From Gammaproteobacteria bacterium (GTDB lineage Bacteria; Pseudomonadota; Gammaproteobacteria; Steroidobacterales; Steroidobacteraceae), in NCBI GenBank assembly GCA_030038875.1, contig JASHQW010000405.1, positions 1 to 40,453 on the forward strand: a DNA stretch of 40,453 nucleotides, written 5' to 3'. This document shows, piece after piece, positions 1 to 23,965 of this stretch. The translations under genes were made by a program, and so were the position numbers. The notes under the pieces were generated by a model, which saw only the letters and a list, made by a program, of their open reading frames with translations, made no database searches and had not been told where the DNA came from. Position 1 is the stretch's first letter; the number at the start of each line of letters is the position of its first letter.

Positions 1-3000
1 GCCCGATGCTTGCGGGCGCGGGCAACACGGTGACCTACACCCAGGGTGGGGCGGCGGTCGTGGCGTCGCCTGTGATTACGGTCTCTCAGGTCGACAGTCT
101 CACGCTGGCTTCGGCGAGTGTTTCGATCAGCTCCGGGTTCTTTGCCGGCGACACGCTCGCTGCCAGCACGGGCAGCACGGCTATCACGGCGAGCTACAAC
201 GCGGGCACCGGGGTGCTCACCCTCACGGGCACCGATACGCTCGCCAACTATCAGACGGTGCTCGAGTCGGTGACCTTCAGCTCGACGAGTGTGAACCCGA
301 CCAACTACGGCCCGGATATTAGCCGCACGCTCTCCTGGCAGGTGAATGACGGCACGCTCAACTCCAACACCGTGACGAGCACGGTGAGCGTGGTGGGCGT
401 GGATCAGGGTCCGGTGCTCAGCGGGGCAACCAACACGGTGACCTACACGCAGGGCGGTGCGGCGGTGGTTGCTGCCTCGCCGCCGATGGCGGTCTCTGAC
501 GTCGATCGCCTGGATCTTGCCTCGGCGACTGTCTCGATCAGCGGCGGGTTCTTCACCGGCGATGTGCTCAGCGCGGTGACGACGGGCACCGTGATTACGG
601 CGAGCTACAACGCGGGCACCGGGGTGCTCACCCTCACGGGCACCGATACGCTCGCCAACTATCAGACGGTGCTCGACTCGGTGACCTTCAGCTCGACGAG
701 TGTGAATCCGACCAACTACGGAATAGACCCGAGCCGCACGTTGAGCTGGCAGGCGAATGACGGCACGGTGGCGTCCAACACCGTGACGAGCACCGTGAAT
801 GTGATCGGTGTGAATCACGCTCCGGTGCTCGCCGGTGCTGGCAACACGGTGACCTACACGCAGGGCGGGACGAAAGTCGTTGCCTCACCGGCGATTACGA
901 TCACCGACATCGAGAGTGCTGACCTGGTCTCGGGGGCCGTTGCGATCAGCTCCGGGTTCTTCGCCGGCGATACGCTCGCTGCCACGACGACGGGCACGGG
1001 CATCACCGCGAGCTACGATGCGTCGACTGGAGTGCTGAGCCTCTCCGGCACTGCGACGCTGGCCAATTACCAGAAGGTACTGGACTCGGTGACCTTCAGC
1101 TCGACGAGTAAGAACCCGACCAGCTACGGCGAAGATTTGAGCCGCACGCTCATGTGGATGGTTAGCGATGCGACGCTGCACTCGAACACCGTGACCAGCA
1201 CGGTAGACGTGGTCGGGGTGGCGCAGGCGCCGGTGCTCGCGGGCGCGAGCAACACGGTGACCTACACGCAGGGTCACGCGGCGGTCATTGCCTCGCCGGG
1301 GATTACGGTCAGCGACGTCGACCGGCTGACGCTCGCCTCGGCGAGTGTGACGATCAGCGCCGGGTTCTTCGCCGGCGATGTACTCAGCGCGGTGACGACG
1401 GGCACCGCCATTACGGCGAGCTACAACGCGGGCACCGGCGTGCTCACCCTCACCGGCACGGATACGCTCGCCAACTATCAGACGGTGCTCGAGTCGGTGA
1501 CCTTCAGCTCGACGAGTGTGAATCCGACCGACTACGGCGCGGACCTGAGCCGCACGCTCTCCTGGCAGGTCAATGACGGCGCGGTCAGCTCCAACACTGC
1601 GACGAGCAAGGTGAAGGTGGTGGGCGTCGATCAAGGCCCGACGCTCACGGACGCGGGCAATACGGTGACCTTCACGCAGGGCGGCGCGGCGGTGGTGGCT
1701 TCGCCTGCGATCAGCGTCTCCGACCCCGACCGGCTTGACCTCACATCAGCGCGGGTTGCGATCAGCTCAGGGTTCTTCAAGGGCGATGAGCTCGCCGCGA
1801 CGACGACGGGTACGGCGATCACCGCGAGCTACAACGCGACCACGGGAGTGCTGACCCTCACCGGCACCGACACGCTGGCGAACTACCAGGCGGTGCTCGA
1901 CTCGGTGACCTTCAGCTCGACGAGTGTGAATCCGACCGACTTCGGCCCCGACACGAGCCGCACCTTAAGCTGGCGGGCGAGCGACGGCACGGTCACATCC
2001 GCGACCGTGACGAGCACTGTAGACGTAGTGGGCGTGGATCAGGGACCGACGCTTGCGGGTGCGGGCAACACGGTGAGCTACACGCAGGGCGGCGCGGCAG
2101 TGGTGGCGTCGCCTGCGATCACGGTCGCGGACGTCGATCGCCTGGATCTGGTCTCGGCGACCGTTACGATCAGCTCCGGCTTCTTCGCCGGCGACACATT
2201 GAGCTGGAGCGCGGTAGCCGGCATCACGGCGAGCTACAACGCAGCTACCGGAGTGCTGAGCTTCACCGGCAGCGCGACGCTCGCGCACTACCAGACGGAG
2301 CTCAGGTCGGTGAAATTCAGCTCGACGAGCGGGAACCCGACCGATTACGGCAGCGATACGAGCCGCACCTTGAGCTGGCAGGTGAATGATGGGACGGTGA
2401 GCTCCAACACCGTCACCAGCACTGTCACCGTGGTGGGTGTGGCGCAGACGCCGGTGCTCTCGGGTGCCGGTAACACGGTCACCTACACGCAGGGTAGCGC
2501 AGCGGTCGCGGCGTCGCCTGCCGTGACGGTCACCGATGTCGACCGCCTGGATCTCGCCTCGGCGACGGTGACGATCAGCAAGGGCCTGTTCGCGGGGGAT
2601 CTACTCGCCGCGACGACAGTCACGGGCGTCAGCGCGAGCTACAACGCGACCACCGGAGTGCTCACGCTCACGGGCAGCGCCACGCTGGCGCAATACCAGG
2701 CGATGCTCGACTCGGTGACCTTCAGCTCGACGAGCGGGAATCCGACCGACTACGGCGCCGACTTGAGCCGCACGCTGAGCTGGGTGATCAATGACGGCAC
2801 GGTCAGCTCCAAGGCTGTCACCAGCACTGTGACGGTGGTCGGTGTGGACCAGCCCGCAGTGCTCGCCGGTGCGGGCAACACGGTCACCTACACGCAGGGC
2901 GGCGCAGCCGTCGTGGCGTCGCCCGCCATTACGGTCTCCGATGTCGATAATCTCGATCTTGCCTCCGCGAAGGTGACGATCAGCAGCGGCTTCCTCGCCG

Positions 3001-4073
3001 GCGACACGTTGAGCTCGACCGCGGTCACCGGCATCACCGCGAGCTACAACGCTTCGACCGGGGTGCTTACCTTGACCGGCAGCAGCACGGTGGCGCATTA
3101 CCAGACGGCGCTCGAGTCGGTGAAATTCAGCTCGACGAGCTCGAATCCGACCAACTCCGGTGCCGACACCAGCCGCACACTGAGCTGGCAGGTCAGTGAC
3201 AGCTCGGCGCTCGCCTCGAACACCGTGACCAGCACGGTCACCGTGGTCGCGGACCCGCCGGCCAGCGCCACGGTGAGCATGGCGACGTCGAGCAAGGCGA
3301 TGGCACGTATCGCGACGCCAGAGATCGCCGCACCAAGTGTTGCCAAGTCGACCGCCGACACGGTAAGCCTGAGCGCCCCAAGTGTTGCCAGATCGAGCCT
3401 CGAGGAGACGGCGAAGGTCATACCGAGTGTCGCAGGCGCTGCAAAGTCGGGGTCCGCGCCCGAAGTCCGGCCGTCGAGCCCGCCGGCATCCGCCAATGCC
3501 ACGCTCAGCCTGGGCAGCCTCAAGGCGACGGCGGGCGAAACCGTCACCGTGCCGGTCAGGATCGACAGCGCGCGCGGCCTGCAATCGATGCAACTGCTGA
3601 TCCGCTACGATGAGCGTGCGCTCACACCGCTCGCCGTACAGCGCAGTGCACTGACCGCTGACTTTCACTACACGGTGGCGATTGTTCAGCCCGGCCTGCT
3701 GCGCATCGATGCCATGCGCAAGAGGCCGTTGCGATTGGGCGAGGGCGAGCTCTTTGGGTTGAGATTTGCGCTCGCCCCCACCGCGGCGGGCACCTTCCCG
3801 ATCGACTTCGTGAGTGCGCGCCTGAACGCCACGCGGCTCGCGGTGCGCAATCCCAACGATGGGGCCATCATCGTCCAGGCAAAGGAGCCGCAGCCGACGG
3901 CGCCGCAGGCGGGGCGCAAGCCGGCCATCTCCCTGATGCAACCGGCGCGTAGCTTTGAGCTGAGCAACGGGAAAGCGCATGCCTGGCTCGAGGATTTCCT
4001 AAAGCCAAGCGACGACAAGAACGGCACAGCGAACTCCTGGAGCGTGGTGGTCAAACCCCGGACGTTGCATTGA
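1..4073 (+). CDS. Giant repetitive surface/adhesin-like protein, 5'-truncated by the window edge; tandem cadherin/VCBS-like repeats and C-terminal cohesin-like domain
   Basis: Frame is open from the window start (the Met at 6 is internal to a repeat). Repeats carry 'NTVTYTQGGAAVVASPAITV..LTGTDTLANYQTVLDSVTFSSTS..RTLSWQVNDGTVSSNTVTSTV'. C-terminal 'ATLSLGSLKATAGETVTVPVRIDSARGLQSMQLLIRYDERALTPLAV' resembles the cohesin fold. Confidence 0.85.
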   Translation, partial: PMLAGAGNTVTYTQGGAAVVASPVITVSQVDSLTLASASVSISSGFFAGDTLAASTGSTAITASYNAGTGVLTLTGTDTLANYQTVLESVTFSSTSVNPTNYGPDISRTLSWQVNDGTLNSNTVTSTVSVVGVDQGPVLSGATNTVTYTQGGAAVVAASPPMAVSDVDRLDLASATVSISGGFFTGDVLSAVTTGTVITASYNAGTGVLTLTGTDTLANYQTVLDSVTFSSTSVNPTNYGIDPSRTLSWQANDGTVASNTVTSTVNVIGVNHAPVLAGAGNTVTYTQGGTKVVASPAITITDIESADLVSGAVAISSGFFAGDTLAATTTGTGITASYDASTGVLSLSGTATLANYQKVLDSVTFSSTSKNPTSYGEDLSRTLMWMVSDATLHSNTVTSTVDVVGVAQAPVLAGASNTVTYTQGHAAVIASPGITVSDVDRLTLASASVTISAGFFAGDVLSAVTTGTAITASYNAGTGVLTLTGTDTLANYQTVLESVTFSSTSVNPTDYGADLSRTLSWQVNDGAVSSNTATSKVKVVGVDQGPTLTDAGNTVTFTQGGAAVVASPAISVSDPDRLDLTSARVAISSGFFKGDELAATTTGTAITASYNATTGVLTLTGTDTLANYQAVLDSVTFSSTSVNPTDFGPDTSRTLSWRASDGTVTSATVTSTVDVVGVDQGPTLAGAGNTVSYTQGGAAVVASPAITVADVDRLDLVSATVTISSGFFAGDTLSWSAVAGITASYNAATGVLSFTGSATLAHYQTELRSVKFSSTSGNPTDYGSDTSRTLSWQVNDGTVSSNTVTSTVTVVGVAQTPVLSGAGNTVTYTQGSAAVAASPAVTVTDVDRLDLASATVTISKGLFAGDLLAATTVTGVSASYNATTGVLTLTGSATLAQYQAMLDSVTFSSTSGNPTDYGADLSRTLSWVINDGTVSSKAVTSTVTVVGVDQPAVLAGAGNTVTYTQGGAAVVASPAITVSDVDNLDLASAKVTISSGFLAGDTLSSTAVTGITASYNASTGVLTLTGSSTVAHYQTALESVKFSSTSSNPTNSGADTSRTLSWQVSDSSALASNTVTSTVTVVADPPASATVSMATSSKAMARIATPEIAAPSVAKSTADTVSLSAPSVARSSLEETAKVIPSVAGAAKSGSAPEVRPSSPPASANATLSLGSLKATAGETVTVPVRIDSARGLQSMQLLIRYDERALTPLAVQRSALTADFHYTVAIVQPGLLRIDAMRKRPLRLGEGELFGLRFALAPTAAGTFPIDFVSARLNATRLAVRNPNDGAIIVQAKEPQPTAPQAGRKPAISLMQPARSFELSNGKAHAWLEDFLKPSDDKNGTANSWSVVVKPRTLH
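18..3252 (+). repeat. Eight tandem ~405-411 bp coding repeats
   Basis: 'aacacggtgacctacac'-type starts recur near 25, 430, 843, 1253, 1662, 2067, 2471 and 2877; the core 'tcggtgaccttcagctcgacgag' recurs at the same phase. Confidence 0.9.
3487..3885 (+). other. Cohesin-like domain in the giant protein
   Basis: 'SANATLSLGSLKATAGETVTVPVRIDSARGLQSMQLLIRYDERALTPLAVQRS..RIDAMRKRPLRLGEGELFGLRFALAPTAAGTFPIDF' fits the cohesin beta-sandwich pattern. Confidence 0.65.
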
Positions 4074-4150: not shown

Positions 4151-6055
4151 ATGACAACAGTACCCGGCGGTGGCCGCCCTGCTGTGGTCGGCGCGGTCGT
4201 TTCCGAGCCTCGACTCGGGTCCTCGTTCTCGTCCTCGACGCAGGCTGGCGCCACGACGGATTTCTGGTCGCTGCTGGTCAATGCGCGAACTTCCGATCAA
4301 CTGTGTCAGGCCTGGCTCGGCATCCTGTGCCAATGGATTCCGGGAACACAGGCCGGCTTGTTGCTGCTGCACGAAGAAGGAGACCGCTATGCTGCGGCGG
4401 CCGTGTGGCCGGACCAGAAGCGGGACATGTCGCACATGTCCGGCGTAGCGCAGGAGGCGCTGCTCGAGCGGCGTGGGGTCGTGCGCGACGAGTCGAGCGG
4501 CATGGCGCAGTGCGCCTACCCGCTGCTCGGTGCCGACAAGGCGTACGGCGTGGTGGTGCTGCACGTGGTGGCCCGTGGCGAAACCGCCGTGCGCGATGCG
4601 CTGAGGTTGCTGCACTGGGGCGCCGGTTGGCTCGTCGGCCTGTTCGACAAGCGCCAGTTGTTGGATTGCGAGCGGCGCTTGAATCGTTCCGCGCTGTTGC
4701 AGGACATTCTTCTGGGTGCGCTCGCCGAGCGGCACGAGGACGAAGCGGCTCGTTGGATCGTCAACCGTCTTGCCGAGGCGCTACCGTGCCGCCATGTCAT
4801 GCTGGCGCGCGCCGGCGGCGCTGCGGACGCGTCGGTGGAGCTGCTTAGCGTTTCCGGCAGCGCGGGATTCGAGGCTCGAGCCAATCTGCTCGCGGCCGCG
4901 CGCGAGGCGCTGCGGGAGGCAACGGTGACCGGCGAGATGCAGTGCTATCCGCCCGTGTCCGATGGCTCCAGCCAGAGCCTGCTCATCGACGCCCTGGCGG
5001 ACTACTGCCGCGAGGCGCAGGCCGGTGGTGCCCTGGCGTTGCCGCTCGTGTCCCAGGGCCGCAAGCTGGGCGCGCTGCTGGTCGAATCGGAAAAGCCGTT
5101 CGATGTCGACACGCGCGGCTTCCTGCAGACGCTTTCCCTGGCGCTTGCGCCTTGCATCGATGTGCAGAGCACCGCCGGCCGCGGACTGCTCGAGCATGCA
5201 CGTTCGAGCACCCGCGACGCGCTGCGCACGCTGGCCGGACCGCGGCATCCGGGGCTGAAATTGATCGCGGGGGTCACGCTGCTTGCCCTGGTCGGGGCCG
5301 CGCTCATTCAGACCGACTTCCGCGTACGTGCGCCCGCCACCGTTGAAGGACAGCTGCAACGCGTGGCCGTCGCGCCCTTCGATGGCTATATCGCCGTGGC
5401 CGCCGTCCGAGCCGGCGACACGGTGCATGCCGGTGACGTGCTTGCGCGTATGGATGACCGAGATCTCAAGCTCGCAGAAGCCAAGGCCGCCGCCGACGAG
5501 GAGTTGGCCGATCGCAAGCTGCGAGAGGCCATGGGTAGAGGTGACGCGGTGGCCGTGCGCATCGCTCAGGCCGATGCCGAGCAGAGTCACGCCGAACTCG
5601 CGCTCGTGCGAGAAAAGCTCTCGCGAGCCGCAATCACGGCACCTTTCGAAGGTCGGGTCGTCAAGGGTGATTTGTCCCAGCAACTGGGGGCGCCCGTGGA
5701 GCAGGGCAAGGTGTTGTTCGAGATCGCGCCGATGAATGCGTGGCGCGTCGTGCTCAAGGTGGACGAGCGCGATATCGTGCATCTGCGCGACGGGCAGCGC
5801 GGTGAGCTGGTGCTGGCGGGTCTTGCGGGCGAGCACTTCGGGATCCGCGTCAGCAAGATCTTCCCCGTGGCGCAGGCCGAAGAGGGCCGCAACACGTTTC
5901 GCGTCGAAGCACAATTGCTGGGCGGCGGGTCGGCCATCCAACCCGGCATGGAGGGCGTGGGCAAGGTGCAGGCGGGCGAGCATAGCCTGCTGTGGATCGG
6001 CTTCCATCGACTGTTCTACTGGGCCCGCTACACCGCATGGACAATCGGCCTGTGA
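4151..6055 (+). CDS. GAF-GAF-TM-HlyD-type periplasmic adaptor
   Basis: Two N-terminal GAF-like segments, one hydrophobic helix 'LIAGVTLLALVGAALI', then lipoyl/HlyD hairpin 'VRAPATVEGQLQRVAVAPFDGYIAVAAVRAGDTVHAGDVLARMDD..ITAPFEGRVVKGDLSQQLGAPVEQGKVLFEIAP'. Confidence 0.85.
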   Translation: MTTVPGGGRPAVVGAVVSEPRLGSSFSSSTQAGATTDFWSLLVNARTSDQLCQAWLGILCQWIPGTQAGLLLLHEEGDRYAAAAVWPDQKRDMSHMSGVAQEALLERRGVVRDESSGMAQCAYPLLGADKAYGVVVLHVVARGETAVRDALRLLHWGAGWLVGLFDKRQLLDCERRLNRSALLQDILLGALAERHEDEAARWIVNRLAEALPCRHVMLARAGGAADASVELLSVSGSAGFEARANLLAAAREALREATVTGEMQCYPPVSDGSSQSLLIDALADYCREAQAGGALALPLVSQGRKLGALLVESEKPFDVDTRGFLQTLSLALAPCIDVQSTAGRGLLEHARSSTRDALRTLAGPRHPGLKLIAGVTLLALVGAALIQTDFRVRAPATVEGQLQRVAVAPFDGYIAVAAVRAGDTVHAGDVLARMDDRDLKLAEAKAAADEELADRKLREAMGRGDAVAVRIAQADAEQSHAELALVREKLSRAAITAPFEGRVVKGDLSQQLGAPVEQGKVLFEIAPMNAWRVVLKVDERDIVHLRDGQRGELVLAGLAGEHFGIRVSKIFPVAQAEEGRNTFRVEAQLLGGGSAIQPGMEGVGKVQAGEHSLLWIGFHRLFYWARYTAWTIGL

Positions 6056-8223
6056 CGCAGGGTGAACAGGGTGGGCTGCACACGCAGCTCGTCAACAGCC
6101 ACTGGTATCGGGTGGCCGGGGTCGTGCCCAGACTTCGCCAGCAGCTGCGTATACACGCGCAACGCTACCGGGGACGGCTCTGGTACGTCGTCGAAGACCG
6201 GTTGAACGGCCGCTATCACCGCTTCGACCGCCAGGCTTGGCGCATCATCCAGCTGCTCGACGGCACCCTCACCTTGGAACAGCTATGGCACCGCCTGGTC
6301 ACCGAGGTCGGCGCGGTCGCGCCCAGCCAGGAAGACATCCTCGTGCTTTTGGGGCAGCTGCACAGCCTGGATCTGCTCGCCTCGGAATCCTTGCCCGACC
6401 TGGCCGAGGCCGCACGGCGTGGGCGCAGCCAGTCGCGGCAGCGGCGCTGGCAGCGCTATATGAACCCGCTTGCGCTGCGCTTCCGTCTATTCGATCCGGA
6501 TCGGTTCCTGGTGCGCGCGGTGCGTGTACTTCGCCCCGTGCTCAATCGCCGCGGCGCGGTGCTGTGGCTTGCCTGGGTCGTGCCCGCGTTGGTTCTTGCC
6601 GTGTCCCACTGGCAGGAGCTCACCAGCAACTTCGGCGAGCGGCTGCTGGCGCTCGACAACCTGGCGCTGCTGTGGCTGATCTTTCCACTGGTGAAGGCGC
6701 TGCACGAGATCGGCCATGGCGTGGCCTGCCGGCTGCGGGGCGGCGAAGTGCACGACATGGGCGTGATGCTCCTCGTCTTCCTGCCCGTACCCTACGTGGA
6801 TGCTTCCAGCTCTTGGGCGTTTCCCCGCAAACGCGACCGCGTGCTGGTCGGGGCTGCGGGCATGATCGTGGAGCTGTTCCTCGCGGCGACCGCGTTTTAT
6901 CTGTGGCTGTGGCTCGAGCCCGGGACGGCAAAGGCGATTGCCTATGACGTCGCAGTCCTCGCGAGCGTGACGACCGTACTCTTCAACGGCAACCCACTGC
7001 TGCGCTACGACGGCTACTACATCGCGAGCGATGCGCTCGAGATTCCAAACCTCTCGCAGCGCGCCACGCGCTACTGGGGCTATCTCGCCGAGCGCTGGCT
7101 GCTGCGCCGCGAGGAGATGCACTCTCCCGTCATGGCGCGCGGCGAGGACCTGTGGTTTTCGCTCTATGCGCCCCTGTCGTTCGCGTACCGCATGTTCGTG
7201 CTGTTATCGATCGCCCTGTTCATCTCACTTAAGTACTCCGCGGTCGGCGCTCTCATCGCCGCGTGGGGCATCCTCGCGGGACTGGGTGTACCGCTGTACC
7301 GCGGTCTGGGCTGGCTGCGGCGCATGTTATTCGACCCCCGCACCGGCGCGCGAGGTCGGCGCGGCGCTCTTGCCTCGCTTGGCGCGCTCGGGGTGGTGCT
7401 GTTCGCTCTGCCGCTGCCGCACCACACCCAGGTTGATGGCGTGCTCTGGCTGCCGGACAGCGGGGTGCTGCGCGCCGGGCAGGCAGGCTTCGTCGGACAG
7501 GTGACAGCGCACGCCGGAGACTCGGTACTACCCGGGGCCGGGGTTCTGAGTCTGCGCGACTCGACATTGACCGCGCACGTGGTTGAGCAGGCGGCCAAGG
7601 TGGAGGCCGCACAGGTGCGCTACGATGCAGCGCGGCTCGCGGACCCTTCAAAGGGCCAGCAGCTCGCAAGCGACCTGGAGCGCGAGCAGGCGGAACTGCA
7701 CGCGCTCGAGGAGCGCGCCAGCCGACTTGAAGTGCACGCCGATGCGCCGGGCCGACTGTGGTTGCAGGACAGCGACAACCTGCCTGGTCAATTCGTCAAG
7801 CAGGGTCAGATCTTAGGCTACGTGATTCCGGCCGCCGCGCCGCGCGTGCGTGTGATCATCGATCAGCCCGATGAGGATTTCATTCGCAGCCACACTCGCA
7901 GCATCGTGGTCAAGGTGCCGTTCGCACCCGGACCGAGCTGGGCGGCTCGGGTGGTTCGGGCCGTCCCGGCGGCGCTGAACGAGCTGCCGAGCGCCGCGCT
8001 GGGCCGCGAAGGCGGTGGCGCCGTCGCGACGGATCCGCGCGACCGGACCGGACGCAAAGCGCTGATGACCCACTTCGAGTACGAACTCGCCTTGCCGGAT
8101 CAGTTCCCGTACCGGTTCATCGGCAGCCGCGCGAGCGTCCGCTTCGAGCATCCACCCGAACCGCTCATCTATCGGATGTGGCGGGGCGTGCGGCGCCTGT
8201 TCCTCGCATTCTTCCACTCGTAG
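6037..8223 (+). CDS. PqqD-like / M50 zinc metalloprotease / lipoyl-HlyD fusion, multi-pass membrane protein
   Basis: N-terminal 'LNGRYHRFDRQAWRIIQLLDGTLTLEQLW' (PqqD-like), HExxH in 'ALHEIGHGVACRLRGG', 'NGNPLLRYDGYYIASD', C-terminal lipoyl-like 'ADAPGRLWLQDSDNLPGQFVKQGQILGYVI'. ATG at 6037 overlaps the upstream stop. Confidence 0.85.
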   Translation: MDNRPVTQGEQGGLHTQLVNSHWYRVAGVVPRLRQQLRIHAQRYRGRLWYVVEDRLNGRYHRFDRQAWRIIQLLDGTLTLEQLWHRLVTEVGAVAPSQEDILVLLGQLHSLDLLASESLPDLAEAARRGRSQSRQRRWQRYMNPLALRFRLFDPDRFLVRAVRVLRPVLNRRGAVLWLAWVVPALVLAVSHWQELTSNFGERLLALDNLALLWLIFPLVKALHEIGHGVACRLRGGEVHDMGVMLLVFLPVPYVDASSSWAFPRKRDRVLVGAAGMIVELFLAATAFYLWLWLEPGTAKAIAYDVAVLASVTTVLFNGNPLLRYDGYYIASDALEIPNLSQRATRYWGYLAERWLLRREEMHSPVMARGEDLWFSLYAPLSFAYRMFVLLSIALFISLKYSAVGALIAAWGILAGLGVPLYRGLGWLRRMLFDPRTGARGRRGALASLGALGVVLFALPLPHHTQVDGVLWLPDSGVLRAGQAGFVGQVTAHAGDSVLPGAGVLSLRDSTLTAHVVEQAAKVEAAQVRYDAARLADPSKGQQLASDLEREQAELHALEERASRLEVHADAPGRLWLQDSDNLPGQFVKQGQILGYVIPAAAPRVRVIIDQPDEDFIRSHTRSIVVKVPFAPGPSWAARVVRAVPAALNELPSAALGREGGGAVATDPRDRTGRKALMTHFEYELALPDQFPYRFIGSRASVRFEHPPEPLIYRMWRGVRRLFLAFFHS

Positions 8224-8228
8224 ACGGC

Positions 8229-10265
8229 ATGAACACCGCTGCTTGGTACTACGACTGGCCACCTGCCCACCTGCCTCTTGCCGCACGGGTCTTTCCGGAG
8301 CGTGCCGAGCAAGCAGACACCGCATTCGACCGCTGGACTGCGGGGATGCTGTCGTCGTTGCAGGCGCCGGACATTTTGCGCCAGCGCGGACGTGACGCGG
8401 TGGTGCGTGCCGTCCTCCGGCAGGCGCAAGGGCTCATGGAATGGGACGAGGCGCGGCTCCGCGCCACAGCGCGCGAGGCGGCCCTACCCGCATTCCTCCG
8501 GTGCGATCGCGACTCCGGCGCCCGCGCGCTCGCGATTGTGCGCGAGGTGGCGCGCCGCAAGGTGGGCTTGTTGGCACATCCGCCGCAGGTTTCAGCTGCC
8601 TGGAAGCTGCTGTGCGGCAGGCTGGTGGAGCTCGACACGGGCGAGGGAAAAACACTGTCGGCCGCTCTGGCCGGCTGCCTGGCGGCGCTCGCGGGCGTTC
8701 CCACGCATGTGATCACGGTGAACGACTACCTTGCGCAGCGCGACGCGCAGACGATGGGGCCGCTGTTTGCGTTTTTCGGTCTCAGCGTGGGCGTGATCCA
8801 TAGCCAGATCGCGCATGGCCGGCGCGCGGCGGAATACTCACGCAGTCTGACCTACTGCACCAACAAGGACCTGGTCTTCGACTACCTGCGGGATCGGGTG
8901 AATGCGCGCGGCGCGCACAGCCTTGCGCAGCTGTCGGTGCGGCAGCTGCATGGTCAGGTGCGCGGCGGCGAGCCGTTGCGGCTGCGGGGATTGCATTTCG
9001 GGATCGTCGACGAGGCTGACAGCATCCTGATCGACGAGGGGCGCACTCCCTTGATCCTGTCCGCCGCCCGCGACAAGGGCCGCGACATCGCCGCGTACCG
9101 GTCGTTGCTCGAGGTGGCGGGCCAGCTTGAAGCGGATGTGGACTTCCGGCTGATCGGCGCGTTGCAAATCCCCGAGCTGACCGAGGCCGGCCGCGAGCGC
9201 CTCGACGAGCTCGGGCGGCAGATGGCTGTGAACGACCAATCGCAGAGTGATCCGGCGCTGGCCTTCTGGCAGGTTTCCTGGGTGCGCGATCACTACATCG
9301 TCCAGGCGCTGCGGGCGCTGCATGTCCTGCAGCGCGACCACCACTACGTCGTCCAGGAGGGCAAGGTGGTCATCGTCGATGAGTTCACCGGGCGGCTGCT
9401 TCCGGATCGCAGCTGGGAGCAGGGCCTGCACCAGTTGATCGAGGTGAAGGAAGGCTGCACGGTCACCGGCGTCAACCGCACGCTGGCGCGACTCACTTAT
9501 CAATCGTTCTTCGCGCGCTATCTGCGCCTATCGGGTATGAGCGGAACCTTGAGGGAGGTGGCGCGGGAGACCGCCGCGGTGTATCGGGTACGCACCGAGC
9601 GCGTCGAGCCCAATAAGCCCATGCGAAGAACCGAGTGGCCGACGTTGCTGACGGCGAGTCGGGAGGCGAAGCACCAGGCGGTGGTTGAGGAGGTGGCGCG
9701 CTGCCTGGCGCGCGGCCAGCCCGTCCTGGTGGGCACGCGCTCCGTGGAGGCCTCGCAATCCGTGAGCGACGCATTGCGGAGCGCGGGCATTGCCCACCGC
9801 GTCCTCAATGCGCTGCAGAACGCCGACGAGGCGGAATTGATCGCCCGTGCCGGCACGCCGCGTGCGGTAACGGTCGCCACGAACATGGCCGGGCGTGGCA
9901 CCGATATCCCGCTCGACCCCGTTGTGATTGAACGCGGCGGGCTGCACGTCGTGTTGACCGAATGGCACGAGTCCGCGCGCATCGATCGGCAGCTATTCGG
10001 CCGCTGCGCGCGGCAGGGCGATCCGGGCTCGTGCCGGGCGATCGTCGCTCTCGATGACGAGATCATTCAGCGACACAGCCCGGGAGTGGCTGCTTGGGTC
10101 GCGCGTCGCTGGGCCGATCGGGTTCCGCCGCAGTGGGTGGTGCGGCTGCTGCGCCATCGTGTGCAGGCAGTGGCCGAACGGGTCAATGCCGCACAGCGCC
10201 GTGCTACGATGCGGCAGGATCGGCTGATGCAAGCACAGCTCGCCTTTTCGGGAACCGCGGAATGA
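8229..10265 (+). CDS. Short SecA-like translocase ATPase (about 678 aa)
   Basis: SecA motifs: Walker A 'LDTGEGKTLSAALAG', 'VNDYLAQRDA', DEAD-type 'IVDEADSILIDEGRTPLILS', 'VIVDEFTGRLLPDRSWEQGLHQLIEVKEG', 'ATNMAGRGTDI', 'DRQLFGRCARQGDPGS'. No C-terminal Cys-rich zinc motif. Confidence 0.9.
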   Translation: MNTAAWYYDWPPAHLPLAARVFPERAEQADTAFDRWTAGMLSSLQAPDILRQRGRDAVVRAVLRQAQGLMEWDEARLRATAREAALPAFLRCDRDSGARALAIVREVARRKVGLLAHPPQVSAAWKLLCGRLVELDTGEGKTLSAALAGCLAALAGVPTHVITVNDYLAQRDAQTMGPLFAFFGLSVGVIHSQIAHGRRAAEYSRSLTYCTNKDLVFDYLRDRVNARGAHSLAQLSVRQLHGQVRGGEPLRLRGLHFGIVDEADSILIDEGRTPLILSAARDKGRDIAAYRSLLEVAGQLEADVDFRLIGALQIPELTEAGRERLDELGRQMAVNDQSQSDPALAFWQVSWVRDHYIVQALRALHVLQRDHHYVVQEGKVVIVDEFTGRLLPDRSWEQGLHQLIEVKEGCTVTGVNRTLARLTYQSFFARYLRLSGMSGTLREVARETAAVYRVRTERVEPNKPMRRTEWPTLLTASREAKHQAVVEEVARCLARGQPVLVGTRSVEASQSVSDALRSAGIAHRVLNALQNADEAELIARAGTPRAVTVATNMAGRGTDIPLDPVVIERGGLHVVLTEWHESARIDRQLFGRCARQGDPGSCRAIVALDDEIIQRHSPGVAAWVARRWADRVPPQWVVRLLRHRVQAVAERVNAAQRRATMRQDRLMQAQLAFSGTAE

Positions 10266-11146
10266 GAAAGTCGCGGATTAACAGACCTCGCGATGCCGGC
10301 TACGGGATGCGCCTTGCGGCGTGTGTGCCCCTGGTGTTGTGCGGCTATCCGGCGCACGGCGCGGACAAGCCTGCCGGTCCGGGCGGCGCTGCCACGCGCG
10401 TCGGCCCGTTCGACTGCCTCATCGAGCCCTATCGCACGGTTGAAGTGCGCAGCCCGGTCACAGGCGTGATCGACAAGCTGTTTGTCTCTCGCGGCAGCAT
10501 GGTGAAACAGGGCGCGCCGCTGGTGAAACTCGATTCCACGGTCGAGAGCGCGGCGGCGGATCTGGCTCTTTTCAAGTCGCAGATGAATGGCCCGCTGGAA
10601 TCCGCCGAAAGCCGCGTCCAGCACGCCGAGAGCAAGTCGCGACGCAAAACCGACCTCGCGGCCAGCAACTTCGCGTCCCTCCAGGACAGCGAGGACGCAG
10701 AGGGCGATGCGGCCGTGGCGCGCGCTGACGTACTATCCGCCCGCGAGAACAAACAAATGGCGAGGCTCGAGTACACCTACGCATCGGCGCAGCTGGGTCT
10801 GCGATTGATTCGCAGTCCTATCAACGGCGTGGTCGTCGATCAAGCCATGGATGTCGGCGACCTCGCGCAACCTGGCGAGAGCAGCGCGTTCATCATCAAG
10901 CTTGCGCAAATCGATATGCTGCGAGTAAAGGCGATCATTCCGCTTGCCCTATACCCCAAAGTCAAACTCGGCCAGCGGGCCGACGTGATTCCGGAAAAGC
11001 CGATGGAAGGACACTACGCAGCGACTCTCACCGTGGTCGATAAGGTGATCGATGCGGCAAGCGGCACCTTCCAGATCCGCATGGACTTGCCCAACCCGAA
11101 TGGCGCGTTGCCCGCAGGGCTCAAATGCATGGTAAACCTGTGGTGA
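10262..11146 (+). CDS. HlyD/RND-type periplasmic adaptor
   Basis: ATGA overlap with the SecA-like stop; signal-like N-terminus; 'VEVRSPVTGVIDKLFVSRGSMVKQGAPLVKLDSTVESAAADLALFKSQM' and 'LIRSPINGVVVDQAMDVGDLAQPG'. Confidence 0.85.
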   Translation: MRKSRINRPRDAGYGMRLAACVPLVLCGYPAHGADKPAGPGGAATRVGPFDCLIEPYRTVEVRSPVTGVIDKLFVSRGSMVKQGAPLVKLDSTVESAAADLALFKSQMNGPLESAESRVQHAESKSRRKTDLAASNFASLQDSEDAEGDAAVARADVLSARENKQMARLEYTYASAQLGLRLIRSPINGVVVDQAMDVGDLAQPGESSAFIIKLAQIDMLRVKAIIPLALYPKVKLGQRADVIPEKPMEGHYAATLTVVDKVIDAASGTFQIRMDLPNPNGALPAGLKCMVNLW

Positions 11147-11607: not shown

Positions 11608-11628
11608 TGTCTCGCAAATAGCTATACG
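11608..11628 (+). repeat. Left terminal inverted repeat of the IS
   Basis: tgtctcgcaaatagctatacg; matches the reverse complement of 12741-12761 at 20/21 positions. Confidence 0.85.
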
Positions 11629-12710
11629 GATAACTGCGGCATACCGGCAAACGATCGTGCCCGCTGGATTCTCGCGAGGATGTCCTCGGCCTTGGCGCGC
11701 CAGCGGTAGGGCTTGGGATCAAGGTTGCACTCGGCAAGATAGCTTTCGATGGCGCGGGTCAGTTCGCGAGTGCTGTCGAAGCTGCCGCTGCGCAGGGACT
11801 CCTCGCTGAGATCGCGGAAGGAGCGCTCAACGAGATTCAGCCAGGAGCTCGAGGTGGGCGCGAAGCGCGTGTGGAAGCGAGGATGCTTGGCGATCCACGC
11901 TCTGACCTTGGGGTGCTTGTGCGTGCTGTAGCCGTCGGCGATCAGATGCAGCGTCAGATCGGCGGGGCTCTCGCGGTCAATGCGACGCAGGAACGCCAGC
12001 CACTCCACCTCGGTGGGCCGCGCGGCAATGCGGCTGCTGATCTTGCCATCCAGATAGCTGAGAGCGGCAAACAGCGTAAGGGTACCGTGGCGCAGGTAGT
12101 CATGGGCGCGGGTGCGCACGTGACCGATCCCCAACGGCTGACCGGGCTGCGTGCGCTCGGGTGCCTGACACTGCGATTTCGCCTCGCAGCACAGCACCAG
12201 AGCTCGATCGGGCGGGTGCAGGTACAGCCCAATCACGTCCCAGAATTTGGCGACCAACTGTCGATCGCGCGAGAGCTGCAAGGTGCGCAGCACGTGGGGC
12301 TTGATCCCGTTGGCGCTCCACAGACGCTGCACAGTCGCCGGCGAGAGCTGGGCGTGACGCGCCATGCTGCGCACGCTCCAGCGGCTGTGCCCCGCCGGCG
12401 GCGGCTGTGCCGCCTCGGTCAGCACTCGGGCGGCTCGCTCGAGCGAGATCGAAGGTCTACGGCCACGCCCCTTGGCATCCGCCAGCCCGGCTACACCCTG
12501 ACAGCGGAAGCGCCGCTCCCACAGCGCCACCACCGGCCGATTGACCCCGATCGCTGTAGCCACTGCTTCCTGGCTCTCTCCGCCCGCGCGCCCCAGCACG
12601 ATCTGCGCCCGGCGCACTTCGCGCTCGCTCGCACTCGGCGCATGCACCAGTCGCTCCAGTTCGCGACGCTGCAACTCACTCAGCTGCAACTTAGAGACCG
12701 CCCTGCCCAT
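11622..12710 (-). CDS. IS630 family transposase
   Basis: N-terminal HTH region, 'AKSQCQAPERTQPGQP', 'HLIADGYSTHKHPKVRAWIAKHPRFHTRFAPTSSSWLNLVERSFRDLSEESLR'; stop codon lies inside the left TIR. Confidence 0.9.
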   Translation of the reverse strand: MGRAVSKLQLSELQRRELERLVHAPSASEREVRRAQIVLGRAGGESQEAVATAIGVNRPVVALWERRFRCQGVAGLADAKGRGRRPSISLERAARVLTEAAQPPPAGHSRWSVRSMARHAQLSPATVQRLWSANGIKPHVLRTLQLSRDRQLVAKFWDVIGLYLHPPDRALVLCCEAKSQCQAPERTQPGQPLGIGHVRTRAHDYLRHGTLTLFAALSYLDGKISSRIAARPTEVEWLAFLRRIDRESPADLTLHLIADGYSTHKHPKVRAWIAKHPRFHTRFAPTSSSWLNLVERSFRDLSEESLRSGSFDSTRELTRAIESYLAECNLDPKPYRWRAKAEDILARIQRARSFAGMPQLSV

Positions 12711-12781: not shown

Positions 12782-14086
12782 ATGGCGAATAGCAAATGCA
12801 TCGCAGGATGGGTGACCTTGGCGCTGTGCGGTTTCGTGCGGGCCGACGATCTGGCGACGATCTATCGGGCAGCGCTCGTCAACAACGCCCAATACCGGGC
12901 GGCGGAGGCGCAGTACGCCTCCGTTCGGCAGCGGGTCCCGGAAAGCGTTGCGGCCATGCTGCCCTCGGTGTCCGTAACGGCCAACACACTATGGAACGAC
13001 AATAACAGCAACACGTTCGATCACCAGCTTTACAACAGCAACGCGTACACCGTGATGTTGACCCAGCCGCTGTGGCGATCGCAGAACGCGATCGCCGTGC
13101 ACGAGGCCCGTATGCTGGTCGATCAGGCCAACGCGCAACTCAATCAAGCGCGGCAGGAATTGATCATTCACACCGCGCAAGGCTACTTCGACGTGCTCTT
13201 CGCGCAGGATGCCTTGAACACGTTCAGGGAACAGCGGGCGGCGGACCTGCAGCAGTTGGAGCAAGCCAGCCGCAGTTTTGATATCGGCGCCGCGTCGATC
13301 ACCGACGTTCGGGATGCCAAGGCTCACTACGACCTCCTGACGGCCCAGGAGATCAGCGCCAGAAACGATGTGGCGTCGAAAACTCAGGCTTTGCGTCAGA
13401 TCATCAACCAGGAGCCCGGTCCGTTGGCGCCCTTGCGTGCCGGAGTCGTGCTGACCAGCCCGGTGCCGGACGCCCTAGGACCCTGGGAGACGGCGGCGCA
13501 AGCCAATAGTGCCAGCGTCTTGGCGGCCGAGGCGGCCGTGGAAGCAGCCCAGGCGGAAGTGCGCAAGTCGCGCGCCGCGTCGCTGCCGACCCTCGATCTG
13601 GTCGCAACGACCGGCTTCTCAACCTCGGCGTCCGACATCACGGTCGGCACCAGGCTGCACGCGGACACTATCGGCGTGCAGTTTTCGATGCCGATTTACT
13701 CGGGAGGCGGCACCTTGGCAAAGGTGCGCGAGAATGTGGCGCTGCTCGATAAGGCGAGCTCCGACCTCGACGATGCGCGCAGCACCAGCGTACTAACCGC
13801 GCAACAGGCGTACCTCGCCGCGACTTCCGGACTGGCGCAGGTGAGGGCGCTCGAGGAGGCGGTCAAATCGGCGCAAATCGCGCTCGAGTCCAACAAGCGC
13901 GGCGTGGCAGTGGGCACTCGAATCAACATCGACGTGCTGAACGCCCAGCAGCAGCTGGCGGTCGTCGAGCGTGATCTTGCCAAGGCGCGTTACGAAACGC
14001 TGATGTCTCTGCTGCGCCTGAAGGCCGCGGCGGGATCCTTGGGTGCGGCGGACATCGATGAAGTCAATGCGCTGCTCGCAAAATAG
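12782..14086 (+). CDS. TolC-like outer membrane efflux protein
   Basis: Signal peptide then 'DDLATIYRAALVNNAQYRAAEAQYASVRQRVPESVAAMLPSVSVTAN', 'GYFDVLFAQDALNTFREQRAADLQQLEQASRSFDIGAASITDVRDAKAHYDL'; strong AAGGGAGGAG RBS. Confidence 0.9.
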   Translation: MANSKCIAGWVTLALCGFVRADDLATIYRAALVNNAQYRAAEAQYASVRQRVPESVAAMLPSVSVTANTLWNDNNSNTFDHQLYNSNAYTVMLTQPLWRSQNAIAVHEARMLVDQANAQLNQARQELIIHTAQGYFDVLFAQDALNTFREQRAADLQQLEQASRSFDIGAASITDVRDAKAHYDLLTAQEISARNDVASKTQALRQIINQEPGPLAPLRAGVVLTSPVPDALGPWETAAQANSASVLAAEAAVEAAQAEVRKSRAASLPTLDLVATTGFSTSASDITVGTRLHADTIGVQFSMPIYSGGGTLAKVRENVALLDKASSDLDDARSTSVLTAQQAYLAATSGLAQVRALEEAVKSAQIALESNKRGVAVGTRINIDVLNAQQQLAVVERDLAKARYETLMSLLRLKAAAGSLGAADIDEVNALLAK

Positions 14087-20401: not shown

Positions 20402-22531
20402 CTATTCGTAGCGCAGCGCCGCGATAGGGTTGAGCCCGGAAGCTTTGCGTGCCGGGTAGTAGCCGAAGAAGATCCCGACCGCGGCGGAGAAGAGAAATCC
20501 GCCCCCAATGGCCGCGAGTGACAGCAAGGTCGGCCAGTGCGCAAGCGCTGAGATCAGCAACGATACGGTGACGCCGCCGAGGATTCCGGCGATACCGCCC
20601 GTAGCGCTCAGGAAGATCGCCTCGGTCAGGAACTGCAGCAGCACGTGCAGCCGCCGTGCGCCGATGGCCATGCGCAGTCCGATCTCGCGTGTCCGCTCCG
20701 TCACCGAGACCAGCAGGATATTCATGATGCCGATGCCTCCGACCAGCAGCGAGATCGACGCCACCACGGCCAGCAGCAGCGCCATGATCCTGGAGGAGCT
20801 TTCCGCCGTCTGCGCGACTTCGCTCAGATTCCGGATGGCGAAATCGGCAGTATCGCCCGGGCGGATGCGGTGGCGGCGCATCAGCGTGTCGTTAACCTGT
20901 TGCAGTGCCACGGGAACCTGATCCTGGCTGACCGCCTGTACGAAGATATTGTTGACGTAGCCGGTGATGCGCGCAGGAATGTTGTACGGGTTCGGCGGCG
21001 GTGGAAAGGCCGCCGCCGTCGTCGTGACGGTCACCGTGGCGCTCGAGATGGTGGTGGTTGCGATCGCCTGCGCCTGGCTGGGGGCGGCTACGCCCAGCAC
21101 CTTCTGCTGCGCGGTCGCGAAGGGGATGATCACTACATCGTCCTGGTCTTGACCGTAGGTGCTTTGACCTTTGGCCTCCAGGAGGCCGACGACATGCAGG
21201 CTTTGTCCTTTCACCAGGATGGTGGCGCCGACCGGGTTCTCGTACGCGCCGAAGAGCTGGCGGTAAACCGTCTGACCGAGCAGCGCCACCATCGTGGCGT
21301 TGCTCTCATCGGCCGCTTCCAGAGGCCTGCCGGAGGCAATGTGCCAGTTCGTAACCCGCAGATAACTGGGCGTCGCACCCTGAATGCTGGTCGTCCAGTT
21401 TTGACTGCCGTACTGTACTTGGCTGAGCTGGCGGATCAGATAGCCGACGTCTGCGACGGCGGGATCCTCGCGGCGCAGCGCCTGGGCGTCGGCGGTGGTC
21501 AGCGTCGAAGCGCTGCCGAAACCGGCGCGCACGCCTCCCGCCGTGGTCGCGCCGGGCAGCACCACAAGCAGGTTGGTGCCGAGGCTTTCGATCTGCTTCC
21601 TGACCGCTTCGTTCGCGCCCTGACCGACGGCGACCATGGCGATGAGCGCGGCCACGCCGATAAAAACGCCCAGCATCGTCAGGGCCGAGCGCAGCTTGTT
21701 GCGCGCGATCGCCTGCGCGGCGCTGCTGAGGATCATGCCGGCAAAGCCGAGCGACGGCGCGGCGGTTGCCGCCGCAGGCGCGAGCGGTCCGGCCTCACTG
21801 ATCTCCGTGGGGCGTTCCGGCGCAGCGCGCCCCGACTTCAACTCGTCACTGATGATCTTTCCGTCCCTCATGGTAAGGACACGATCAGCGTAATCGGCTA
21901 TGTCGCGCTCATGCGTCACGACGACGACCGTTACAGCCTGCTCGCTATTGAGCGTACGCAGCGCACGCATGATCTCGTGGGAAGTGCGCGTGTCGAGATT
22001 TCCGGTAGGCTCATCTGCCAGGAGCAGATTGGGCTTGTTGATCAGGGCGCGCGCGATGGCGACCCGCTGCTGCTGGCCTCCCGAAAGCTGGCTCGGGCTG
22101 CTGTCGTCGCGCCCGCTCAGGCCGAGCTCGGTAAGCGCCGCGCGAGCGCGGGCCAGGCGCTCGCTGCGGCGCGCCGGGCCCGAAGCGGCGTAGAACAACG
22201 GCAGCGCGACGTTTTCGATTGCGCTGGTTCGTGCCAGCAGGTTGAAGCTCTGGAATACAAAACCGATGCGCTCGCTGCGCATGCGCGCCAGAGCCGGTTC
22301 GCTCAAGCGCGTGACGTCGAGGCCTTCGAACAGGTACTCGCCGGCAGTGGGCTGATCGAGGCAGCCACAGACATTCATCAGCGTGGATTTTCCCGAGCCG
22401 GATGAGCCCATGATGGCCACGAACTCCCCCTGCGCGATCGCCAGGCTCACGTCATCGAGTGCGCGCACTTCCGTATCGCCCAGGCGATAGAAGCGGCTCA
22501 CGTTCCTCAACTCGATCAGCGGTGAGCTCAT
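20402..22531 (-). CDS. macB: MacB-type ABC transporter (ATPase-permease fusion)
   Basis: '[12 protein letters not shown]', '[32 protein letters not shown]', FtsX-like C-terminus '[30 protein letters not shown]'. Confidence 0.9.
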
Positions 22532-22556
22532 GACGCTCCCTCGCGCAGTGCTCGCC

Positions 22557-23813
22557 CTAGAAGCCGAAATGGAACGTTCCGGGACGCGAGTGGCTGCTGC
22601 TGCGCTGTTCCCCGATGATGACCTGATCGTCTGCGCTCAACGCGCCCGTCACGATCTCGGTGTAGCTGTCATCGTCCAGCCCGGTACCGACGGTAAGGGC
22701 GGTGGGCCTGCCTTCCCGGAGGACCCACAGCCGCGCTTGTCGGGCACCGCCCGCTCCGGCGGACACACCGGCTCCGGCGGCCGAAGCGGCCGGCTTCGCA
22801 GTGCTCGCCCCGCCGGGGATGAAACGCAGCGCCTGATCGGGTACGCGCAGCACGCCGATGCGCCGAGCGGTCACGATCGCGACCGTCGCCGTCATGCCGG
22901 GCTTCAACAGGAACCTGGAGTTGTCGACGTCGACGACGACATCGTAAGTCACGACGTTCTGTACGGTCTGTGGCGCCTGGCGTACCTGCATCACCTTTCC
23001 CTGGAACGATCGGTCGGTGAAGGCCTCCACCGTGAATTGGGCCTCGTCGCCTTCCTTGATTGCGCCAATGTCGTTTTCGCTCACGTTGGTGTCGACTTGC
23101 ATCTTCGTCAGATCGGTGGCGATCAGGAATAAGGTGGGGGTCTGAAAGCTCGCGGCCACCGTTTGCCCGATCGTGATGTTGCGTGCCACGACCGTGCCGT
23201 CGACCGGCGAGATGATATTGGTGTAGTCAAGATTGACCTGCGCGGTCTCGACCGCCGCGCGATCGAGCTGCACGGCGCCTTCGAGCTGGTGAACCAGCGC
23301 TGCCTCATCATCATAGGTCTGGACGGCGATCGAATCCTGCTTCTCGAGTGCCGCATAGCGCGCGAGGTCGATGCGCGCTCCGGCCAGCTGCGCACTGTCA
23401 CGCGCTAGCTGCCCCTTCGCCTGGTCGAGCGCCGCCTGATAGGGACGCGGATCGATCTTGGCGCACAGCTGGCCTTTCTTGACCCGCGTGTTGTAGTCGC
23501 AGTACATGTCGCTGATCACGCCGGAGACGTAGGAGCCAATGATGATGGTCAGCACTGGATTCACCGTGCCGGTCGCCGCAACGGTGCGCGCTACGATGCC
23601 GCGAGTTACCGGTGCCGTCAGGTACCGAACCGGGGCGGCTTCGTGCTGGAACCACCAGGTGCCCGCCACCCCCAGCAGGACTGCCGCGGCGAGAACGCTG
23701 ACCGCGACCTTGCGGCTGGTGCGGATCGCCGTAACTCCCGCATGAATACTGGCGTAAAGACCTCGCTTTGCGGACGGGCCTTCAGTGCCTAGCAGGTTGA
23801 CTGGCTGCAACAA
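22557..23813 (-). CDS. macA: MacA-like periplasmic adaptor
   Basis: 'YLTAPVTRGIVARTVAATGTVNPVLTIIIGSYVSGVISDMYCDYNTRVKKGQLCAKIDPRPYQAALDQAKGQL..ISPVDGTVVARNITIGQTVAASFQTPTLFLIATDLTKMQVDTNVSENDIG'. Start uncertain; no in-frame ATG, TTG near 23813 plausible. Confidence 0.85.
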   Translation of the reverse strand: MLQPVNLLGTEGPSAKRGLYASIHAGVTAIRTSRKVAVSVLAAAVLLGVAGTWWFQHEAAPVRYLTAPVTRGIVARTVAATGTVNPVLTIIIGSYVSGVISDMYCDYNTRVKKGQLCAKIDPRPYQAALDQAKGQLARDSAQLAGARIDLARYAALEKQDSIAVQTYDDEAALVHQLEGAVQLDRAAVETAQVNLDYTNIISPVDGTVVARNITIGQTVAASFQTPTLFLIATDLTKMQVDTNVSENDIGAIKEGDEAQFTVEAFTDRSFQGKVMQVRQAPQTVQNVVTYDVVVDVDNSRFLLKPGMTATVAIVTARRIGVLRVPDQALRFIPGGASTAKPAASAAGAGVSAGAGGARQARLWVLREGRPTALTVGTGLDDDSYTEIVTGALSADDQVIIGEQRSSSHSRPGTFHFGF

Positions 23814-23965
23814 GGATGCCTCGCACCCACGGTTCCTCCGATGAGTCCAGCATGCATAGCGGCTGCCGCAAATACGCGTATGTGCTGATACGACTGCGCC
23901 AATTGCGCGTTTCCCGCGGTGCGGCTTCTCTGCATCATGTGACCTCGGACAGGCGTGCACGGAGG

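Follow-up and report, generated by a model that had tools for sequence, protein, structure and literature searches.

Several described systems bear on the SecA-like motor analysed here. In housekeeping SecA, the two-helix finger enters SecY and acts together with the PPXD clamp (PMC6599042), and residues 1–609 of the E. coli protein are enough for ATPase activity, with 1–831 as the minimum for translocation in liposomes alone (PMC5456053). The laboratory truncation of E. coli SecA, SecA-N68 (PDB 5k9t), which comprises NBD1, PPXD and NBD2 without the C-terminal helical domains, is a constitutive ATPase that binds signal peptides and binds SecYEG tightly, without translocating (PMC5603524). Gram-positive SecA2 proteins, which work with SecY2/Asp and are tied to large surface proteins, likewise have no C-terminal tail, and in some of them the wing is reduced; the SecA2 of C. 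difficile has lost the tail and kept the finger (PMC7503281). Among exporters, type 1 systems for giant RTX/Bap-like adhesins combine an ABC ATPase with HlyD-type adaptors and TolC and read a C-terminal signal. Finally, the M50 proteases of daptide and epipeptide maturation (NF041824 and NF058609) join an N-terminal PqqD-like domain to an HExxH intramembrane protease acting on small peptides.

The DNA analysed, hereafter the window, is a gammaproteobacterial stretch of 40,453 nucleotides that makes up the entire contig C138. It carries an operon in which a short SecA, encoded by a genuine coding sequence of 678 codons, stands among genes for HlyD, M50 and giant repeat proteins (Table 1). We think it probable that this SecA is the ATPase of an exporter dedicated to moving giant surface proteins across the cell envelope, an inference made from sequence alone and without experiment. 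Genes of the system are annotated inconsistently, as SecA, translocase, DEAD/DEAH box helicase, prepilin peptidase or hypothetical protein, and it is therefore easily missed.

Table 1. Coordinates of the operon, its neighbours and the motifs of the short SecA within the window.
Feature	Position	Strand	Remarks
Giant repeat protein, C-terminal 1355 aa, putative exported client	6..4073	+	Runs off contig start
GAF-GAF-TM-HlyD, membrane-fusion protein with cytosolic GAF domains	4151..6055	+	PF01590 and HlyD_3 PF13437 above cut-off
PqqD (RRE-like)-M50 intramembrane protease-HlyD fusion	6037..8223	+	Pfam
Short SecA, 678 aa	8229..10265	+	NBD1, PPXD, NBD2, start of scaffold helix
Walker A, TGEGKT	8637..8654	+	Residues 137-142
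Walker B/DEAD, DEAD-like	9009..9020	+	Residues 261-264
Motif VI, GRCARQGDPG	9999..10028	+	Residues 591-600
Scaffold helix (residues 635-673) and terminal motif LAFSGxxE, protein end	10131..10262	+	
Second HlyD/MacA-type adaptor, signal-peptide-like N-terminus	10262..11146	+	
IS630-family transposase, not part of the system	11622..12710	-	NF033545, 230.7 bits vs cut-off 100
TolC-family outer-membrane channel	12782..14086	+	TIGR01844, 288.5 bits vs cut-off 225

Pfam searches of the short SecA returned SecA_DEAD (PF07517, 262 bits), SecA_PP_bind (PF01043, 85 bits) and P-loop_SecA (PF21090, 169 bits). Its AlphaFold model (pLDDT 89.9, pTM 0.90) matched SecA proteins in the PDB, including SecA-N68 with E=1.4e-43, the best fold matches being to housekeeping SecA (PDB 1tf5 and 3jv2). 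With a SecA-type DEAD motor, PPXD and NBD2 established in this way, the protein is a member of the SecA superfamily. Walker A, the DEAD-like motif and motif VI are all present, as the initial annotation had claimed. Across 65 aligned relatives (652–680 residues as trimmed, with one row poorly aligned at 19% identity), ATPase residues are kept in at least 63: the Walker A lysine K141, D261, E262 and R592 in 64 each, and D264 and R595 in all 65.

The same annotation had described the C-terminal region as shortened and the scaffold as largely missing, and both claims held, the second with a refinement. A profile of the 65 relatives aligned over positions 43–657 of 666 with residues 13–608 of B. 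subtilis SecA (3jv2) and ended there, so that the wing, the two-helix finger and the C-terminal linker/zinc tail are absent; Pfam searches of the short SecA likewise found no wing or scaffold family. A complete scaffold and wing in the alignment would have refuted the claim, and were not seen: the protein has neither wing nor tail, nor the part of the scaffold that bears the finger. The model ends in a single long helix (residues 635–673), predicted to be the first part of the scaffold, which is thus retained. The sequence VALDDEIIQRHSP, after which the protein had been said to end soon, lies about 60 residues before the end. In every short SecA, the wing, the finger and the rest of the scaffold are missing according to both alignment and profile, and the 65 relatives share a near-identical end point, usually “..LAFSGxxE”. 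A truncation or frameshift artefact was rejected on the grounds of this end point and of the motor residues conserved across the roughly 65 relatives.

The protein had also been judged unlikely to be the housekeeping SecA, a view that would have failed had it been the only secA in the genome. It is not, as a second, full-length gene is present (G000:C320:7058-8785, a frame of 995 aa truncated at the contig edge), and the claim is supported. Full-length SecA was likewise found in 24 of the 24 other short-SecA genomes checked, which carry one to four short copies each, in support of an accessory role for the short SecA. Scores were high but fell well short of the curated NCBIfam cut-offs both for housekeeping SecA (501.6 vs 814 and 497.5 vs 800 bits, TIGR00963 and NF009538) and for every SecA2 model compared (TIGR03714, TIGR04397, TIGR04221 and NF012136; 441 vs 1085, 391.6 vs 930, 380.5 vs 725 and 349.6 vs 1100). 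In a tree built by a quick method from 40 short SecAs, 28 full-length SecAs, two Lactobacillus SecA2s and two Gram-positive sequences, with mycobacterial and Listeria SecA2 left out, the short SecAs were split from all the other sequences by a branch whose SH-aLRT support was 100, and the Lactobacillus SecA2s grouped with full-length SecA. The short SecA is therefore neither the housekeeping protein, given the second secA and the sub-threshold scores, nor a known SecA2, given the missed SecA2 cut-offs and its position outside the Lactobacillus sequences. It represents a subfamily distinct from full-length SecA as well as from Lactobacillus SecA2.

Compared with housekeeping SecA (1tf5, 3jv2), the short SecA shares NBD1, PPXD, NBD2, Walker A/B and motif VI, with about 42–45% core identity, but has no wing, finger or tail and only the beginning of the scaffold; it carries an N-terminal YPER-type and a C-terminal LAFSGxxE motif and falls in a separate clade. 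Like Gram-positive SecA2, it is a second, accessory SecA beside a full-length one and is linked to large surface proteins, but SecA2 retains scaffold and finger, and the partners of the short SecA are HlyD and M50 proteins instead of SecY2/Asp. SecA-N68 has the same domain content; it is, however, engineered, whereas the short SecA is a conserved natural protein whose end falls inside the scaffold helix. Decay or truncation of a housekeeping secA copy that has no dedicated role would account for the missing C-terminal third and for the IS630 element in the same cluster, which sits between the HlyD and TolC genes. This explanation is all but excluded and is refuted by conservation: end point, terminal motif and ATPase residues are common to the 65 relatives, these form one deep clade with support of 100, and the short SecA stop codon overlaps the start codon of the next gene, the second adaptor, as ATGA.

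The operon itself is conserved as a giant protein, GAF-HlyD, PqqD-M50-HlyD, the short SecA, HlyD and often TolC. In nearly all of 22 other gammaproteobacterial loci, the short SecA comes after GAF-HlyD and PqqD-M50-HlyD and before the second HlyD; GAF-HlyD orthologues hold the same position in nearly all related loci, and the second-HlyD orthologue adjoins the short SecA in most. A search with M50-HlyD across 84,980 species recovered at least 578 relatives, and a short SecA is present in 76 of the 80 best loci; of the four loci without one, two lie at contig ends. In the M50-HlyD protein, the PqqD domain scored 24.5 bits (cut-off 23.4) and the M50 domain 23.4 bits, just below its cut-off of 27.2, with HExxH (H223, E224, H227) and D325 invariant among relatives. 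The PqqD matches are weak, with E<=0.01 reached by 36 of 53 members; the region, residues 38–110, is modelled as three strands plus helices. A PDB fold search with the model gave only adaptor-domain matches in the top 50, which is neutral on the PqqD/M50 assignment. The N-terminal PqqD-like domain and HExxH protease recall the daptide and epipeptide enzymes, but the protein scored 162.8 bits against the daptide cut-off of 300 (NF041824), has a C-terminal HlyD domain and is linked to giants and not to small peptides.

The short-SecA operon is spread over dozens of unrelated bacteria, with hosts among the Alpha-, Beta- and Gammaproteobacteria and the Desulfobacterota, plus one Rokubacteria MAG. 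The Methylosinus plasmid pMSC49a offers a compact complete version, with a 26.5-kb giant followed by DUF3467, HlyD, PqqD-M50, the short SecA (annotated “prepilin peptidase”), HlyD and TolC, a gene order that the window shares, TolC included. No short-type SecA match came from 36 sampled genomes of the same genus, and the nearest relatives, at 62–69% identity, include Aquabacterium sequences; on these grounds, the window copy was probably acquired by horizontal transfer, and the plasmid copies are consistent with this. A single SecA was reported in a 2008 survey of Rhizobium leguminosarum 3841 (PMC2275737), which fits a sporadic distribution.

The window giant comprises eight tandem repeats of about 135 residues and a C-terminal cohesin domain (PF00963, 35.8 bits), and its N-terminus lies off the contig. 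The repeats, 68–82% alike to the query repeat, matched no convincing Pfam family and are likely an undescribed Ig/cadherin-like type. When they were sought on other contigs, all eight matches fell within the window and the N-terminus was not recovered. Elsewhere, giants encoded by complete single ORFs reach 10,327 aa (genome G150), 14,112 aa (G270), 8,630 aa (G149) and 7,273 aa (G425); each starts with “..LEPR/EAR..LLSAD”, and three of the four end at the operon. The longest, at G270:C84 41341-83677 (L239-L241), is an uninterrupted 14,112-codon ORF with a LEPRLLLSAD N-terminus that ends just upstream of the operon. Annotated plasmid coding sequences near operons measure 31.6, 38.2, 24.4 and 26.5 kb, and on alphaproteobacterial plasmids those of 26–38 kb lie directly upstream, two having been checked for the LEPR motif. 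Where the N-terminus can be read, the giants usually carry a basic stretch and a LEPR-XLL-like motif (LEPRLLLSAD), often followed by DUF4347; client C-termini are diverse.

The co-occurrence of these N-terminal features with the short SecA was assessed within one class sample. DUF4347 was found in 19 of 21 genomes with a short SecA and 32 of the 348 remaining ones (p ~3e-16), and an exact nucleotide pattern encoding EPR-[hydrophobic]-L-x-[S/T]-A-D in 13 of 22 and 6 of 348, respectively (Fisher p ~4e-14); the pattern read backwards, as a control in the same sample, matched four genomes. The genomes G150 and G270 have the motif without DUF4347. In 24 other named genomes, the pattern occurred in 13 and its reversal in none. 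Sixteen of 17 motif sites share contig and strand with a short SecA, and 14 of the 17 lie 18–47 kb upstream of it, the length of a giant gene, with two 1.7 kb downstream. These tests were not corrected for relatedness, and the 24-genome set was chosen for having the system. In the window genome, which is 87% complete and in which the giant's N-terminus was not assembled, neither DUF4347 nor the exact pattern was found. The initial annotation had allowed for a specialised client; giants with an N-terminal LEPR-XLL motif, whose genes lie immediately upstream in many relatives, and the co-occurrence of that motif with the short SecA strongly suggest one, and point to the giant itself, although its role as client is inferred.

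Domains, conservation, linkage and an intact motor core with its PPXD clamp are thus shown. In the mechanism that we propose on this basis, the giant would lack an ordinary signal peptide and be recognised by its N-terminal LEPR motif, which the PqqD domain, a relative of the RiPP recognition elements to which leader peptides bind, may bind at the membrane. The M50 domain may then cleave the motif, which is plausible because HExxH and D325 are invariant. The short SecA would dock on an inner-membrane complex of PqqD-M50-HlyD and GAF-HlyD, the former being its most likely partner, and thread the chain in clamp cycles powered by ATP. In this role it would stand in for the ABC ATPase of a type 1 system, and SecYEG might be bypassed. 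The passage to the outside would be built from the HlyD proteins and TolC, and the window TolC is, judging by its sequence, probably the outer-membrane exit. With three HlyD-domain proteins and TolC, the window meets the membrane-fusion and channel criterion of type 1 secretion, and the system's putative client, a giant repeat/cadherin/RTX-type protein, is also alike. It differs in that the operon has a SecA-type ATPase and no ABC ATPase gene, in that two HlyD proteins are fused to GAF or PqqD-M50, and in that the candidate signal is N-terminal and not C-terminal. The nearest ABC gene belongs to a MacB/MacA-type efflux pair outside the operon, at 20402-23960 on the - strand.

The main rival to the exporter model is a SecA2-like accessory motor working on ordinary SecYEG, either alone or mixed with full-length SecA that supplies the finger; the short SecA would push the giant across the inner membrane, with HlyD, TolC and M50 acting later. 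In its favour, the similarly truncated SecA-N68 combines high-affinity SecYEG binding with ATPase activity (PMC5603524), full-length SecA accompanies the short one in all 24 genomes checked, and operon versions without short SecA would be expected if housekeeping SecA suffices. Against it, the SecY-contacting parts, namely the finger, the wing and the rest of the scaffold, are missing in every member (PMC6599042, PMC7503281), and the proteins encoded alongside are membrane proteins of the HlyD and M50 types; we regard it as unlikely. Still less probable is that the short SecA acts as an unfoldase, a chaperone or a regulator, either maintaining the giant in soluble form or delivering its leader to the PqqD-M50 maturation enzyme, with another energy source moving the chain. 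The missing translocation finger, the PqqD and M50 domains known from peptide maturation (including the sub-threshold daptide match) and the existence of M50-HlyD/LEPR systems without short SecA would fit this view. However, the protein retains the PPXD clamp and the full set of motor motifs, and neither the window operon nor the loci inspected one gene at a time showed another motor. SecA-family proteins are, moreover, known as translocation motors.

The dedicated exporter thus remains the preferred reading, with the window giant's unseen N-terminus, the weak PqqD matches and the SecA-less variants counting against it. Since SecA-N68 cannot translocate and binds SecYEG (PMC5603524), a SecA without the finger may need help or act with SecYEG. 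A bolder version, in which a finger-less SecA core replaces the ABC transporter in a separate, SecYEG-independent Gram-negative pathway and drives LEPR-XLL giants through the PqqD-M50-HlyD/GAF-HlyD complex and TolC, is one that we lean slightly against. If the exporter model is true, some of the largest bacterial proteins would gain a motor, a candidate recognition signal and a conduit, and LEPR-XLL, until now a named motif with no known route, would acquire one. It would also place a SecA within an HlyD/TolC machine and have it work without the two-helix finger, with implications for the still unsettled role of that finger. A search of the open-access literature, with preprints and most subscription journals outside its scope, turned up neither an account of SecA together with HlyD and M50 nor any report of how proteins with LEPR-XLL or DUF4347 are exported; within that literature, the export operon is apparently undescribed.

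The variants without short SecA comprise at least six genomes (G107, G140, G223, G228, G242 and G362), which have a strong M50-HlyD relative, in most cases a LEPR giant, and only full-length SecA; in G129 and G331, a short SecA and M50-HlyD are both present but unlinked. Given such sets, not every version depends on the short SecA. The apparent core, as far as sequence allows this to be inferred, is the HlyD/M50 set, with the short SecA as the motor of one large branch; in the lineages without it, the set perhaps works with housekeeping SecA. SecA-less GAF-HlyD, M50-HlyD and HlyD sets were seen at L298-L303 and L313-L314 in those six genomes and at L161 and L181, mostly with a LEPR-type giant. 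Two flavours of the motif were distinguished: “LLLSAD” occurs mostly with the short SecA, and “IMFDGAA” mostly where it is absent and the M50-HlyD protein is more distant. The LEPRxMFDGAA flavour was seen on DUF4347 giants at L085, L086, L091, L092, L094, L098, L100, L107 and L110, and these giants possibly belong to a sister export system.

In alphaproteobacterial operons (L318, L319 and L345), a small DUF3467 gene lies between the giant and the HlyD genes, and its product could be a chaperone of the giant. Ramlibacter paludis (L177 and L207; G433) has four short SecAs, one full-length SecA and three exact LEPR sites nearby, and R. cellulosilyticus (L171; G432) has four, one and two, respectively, so that both genomes may, from their sequences, be inferred to encode several parallel systems per cell. 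Distant M50-HlyD relatives (H52-H70; 25% of the query at about 37% identity) occur on many E. coli and Citrobacter plasmids, where they are annotated as HlyD adaptors.
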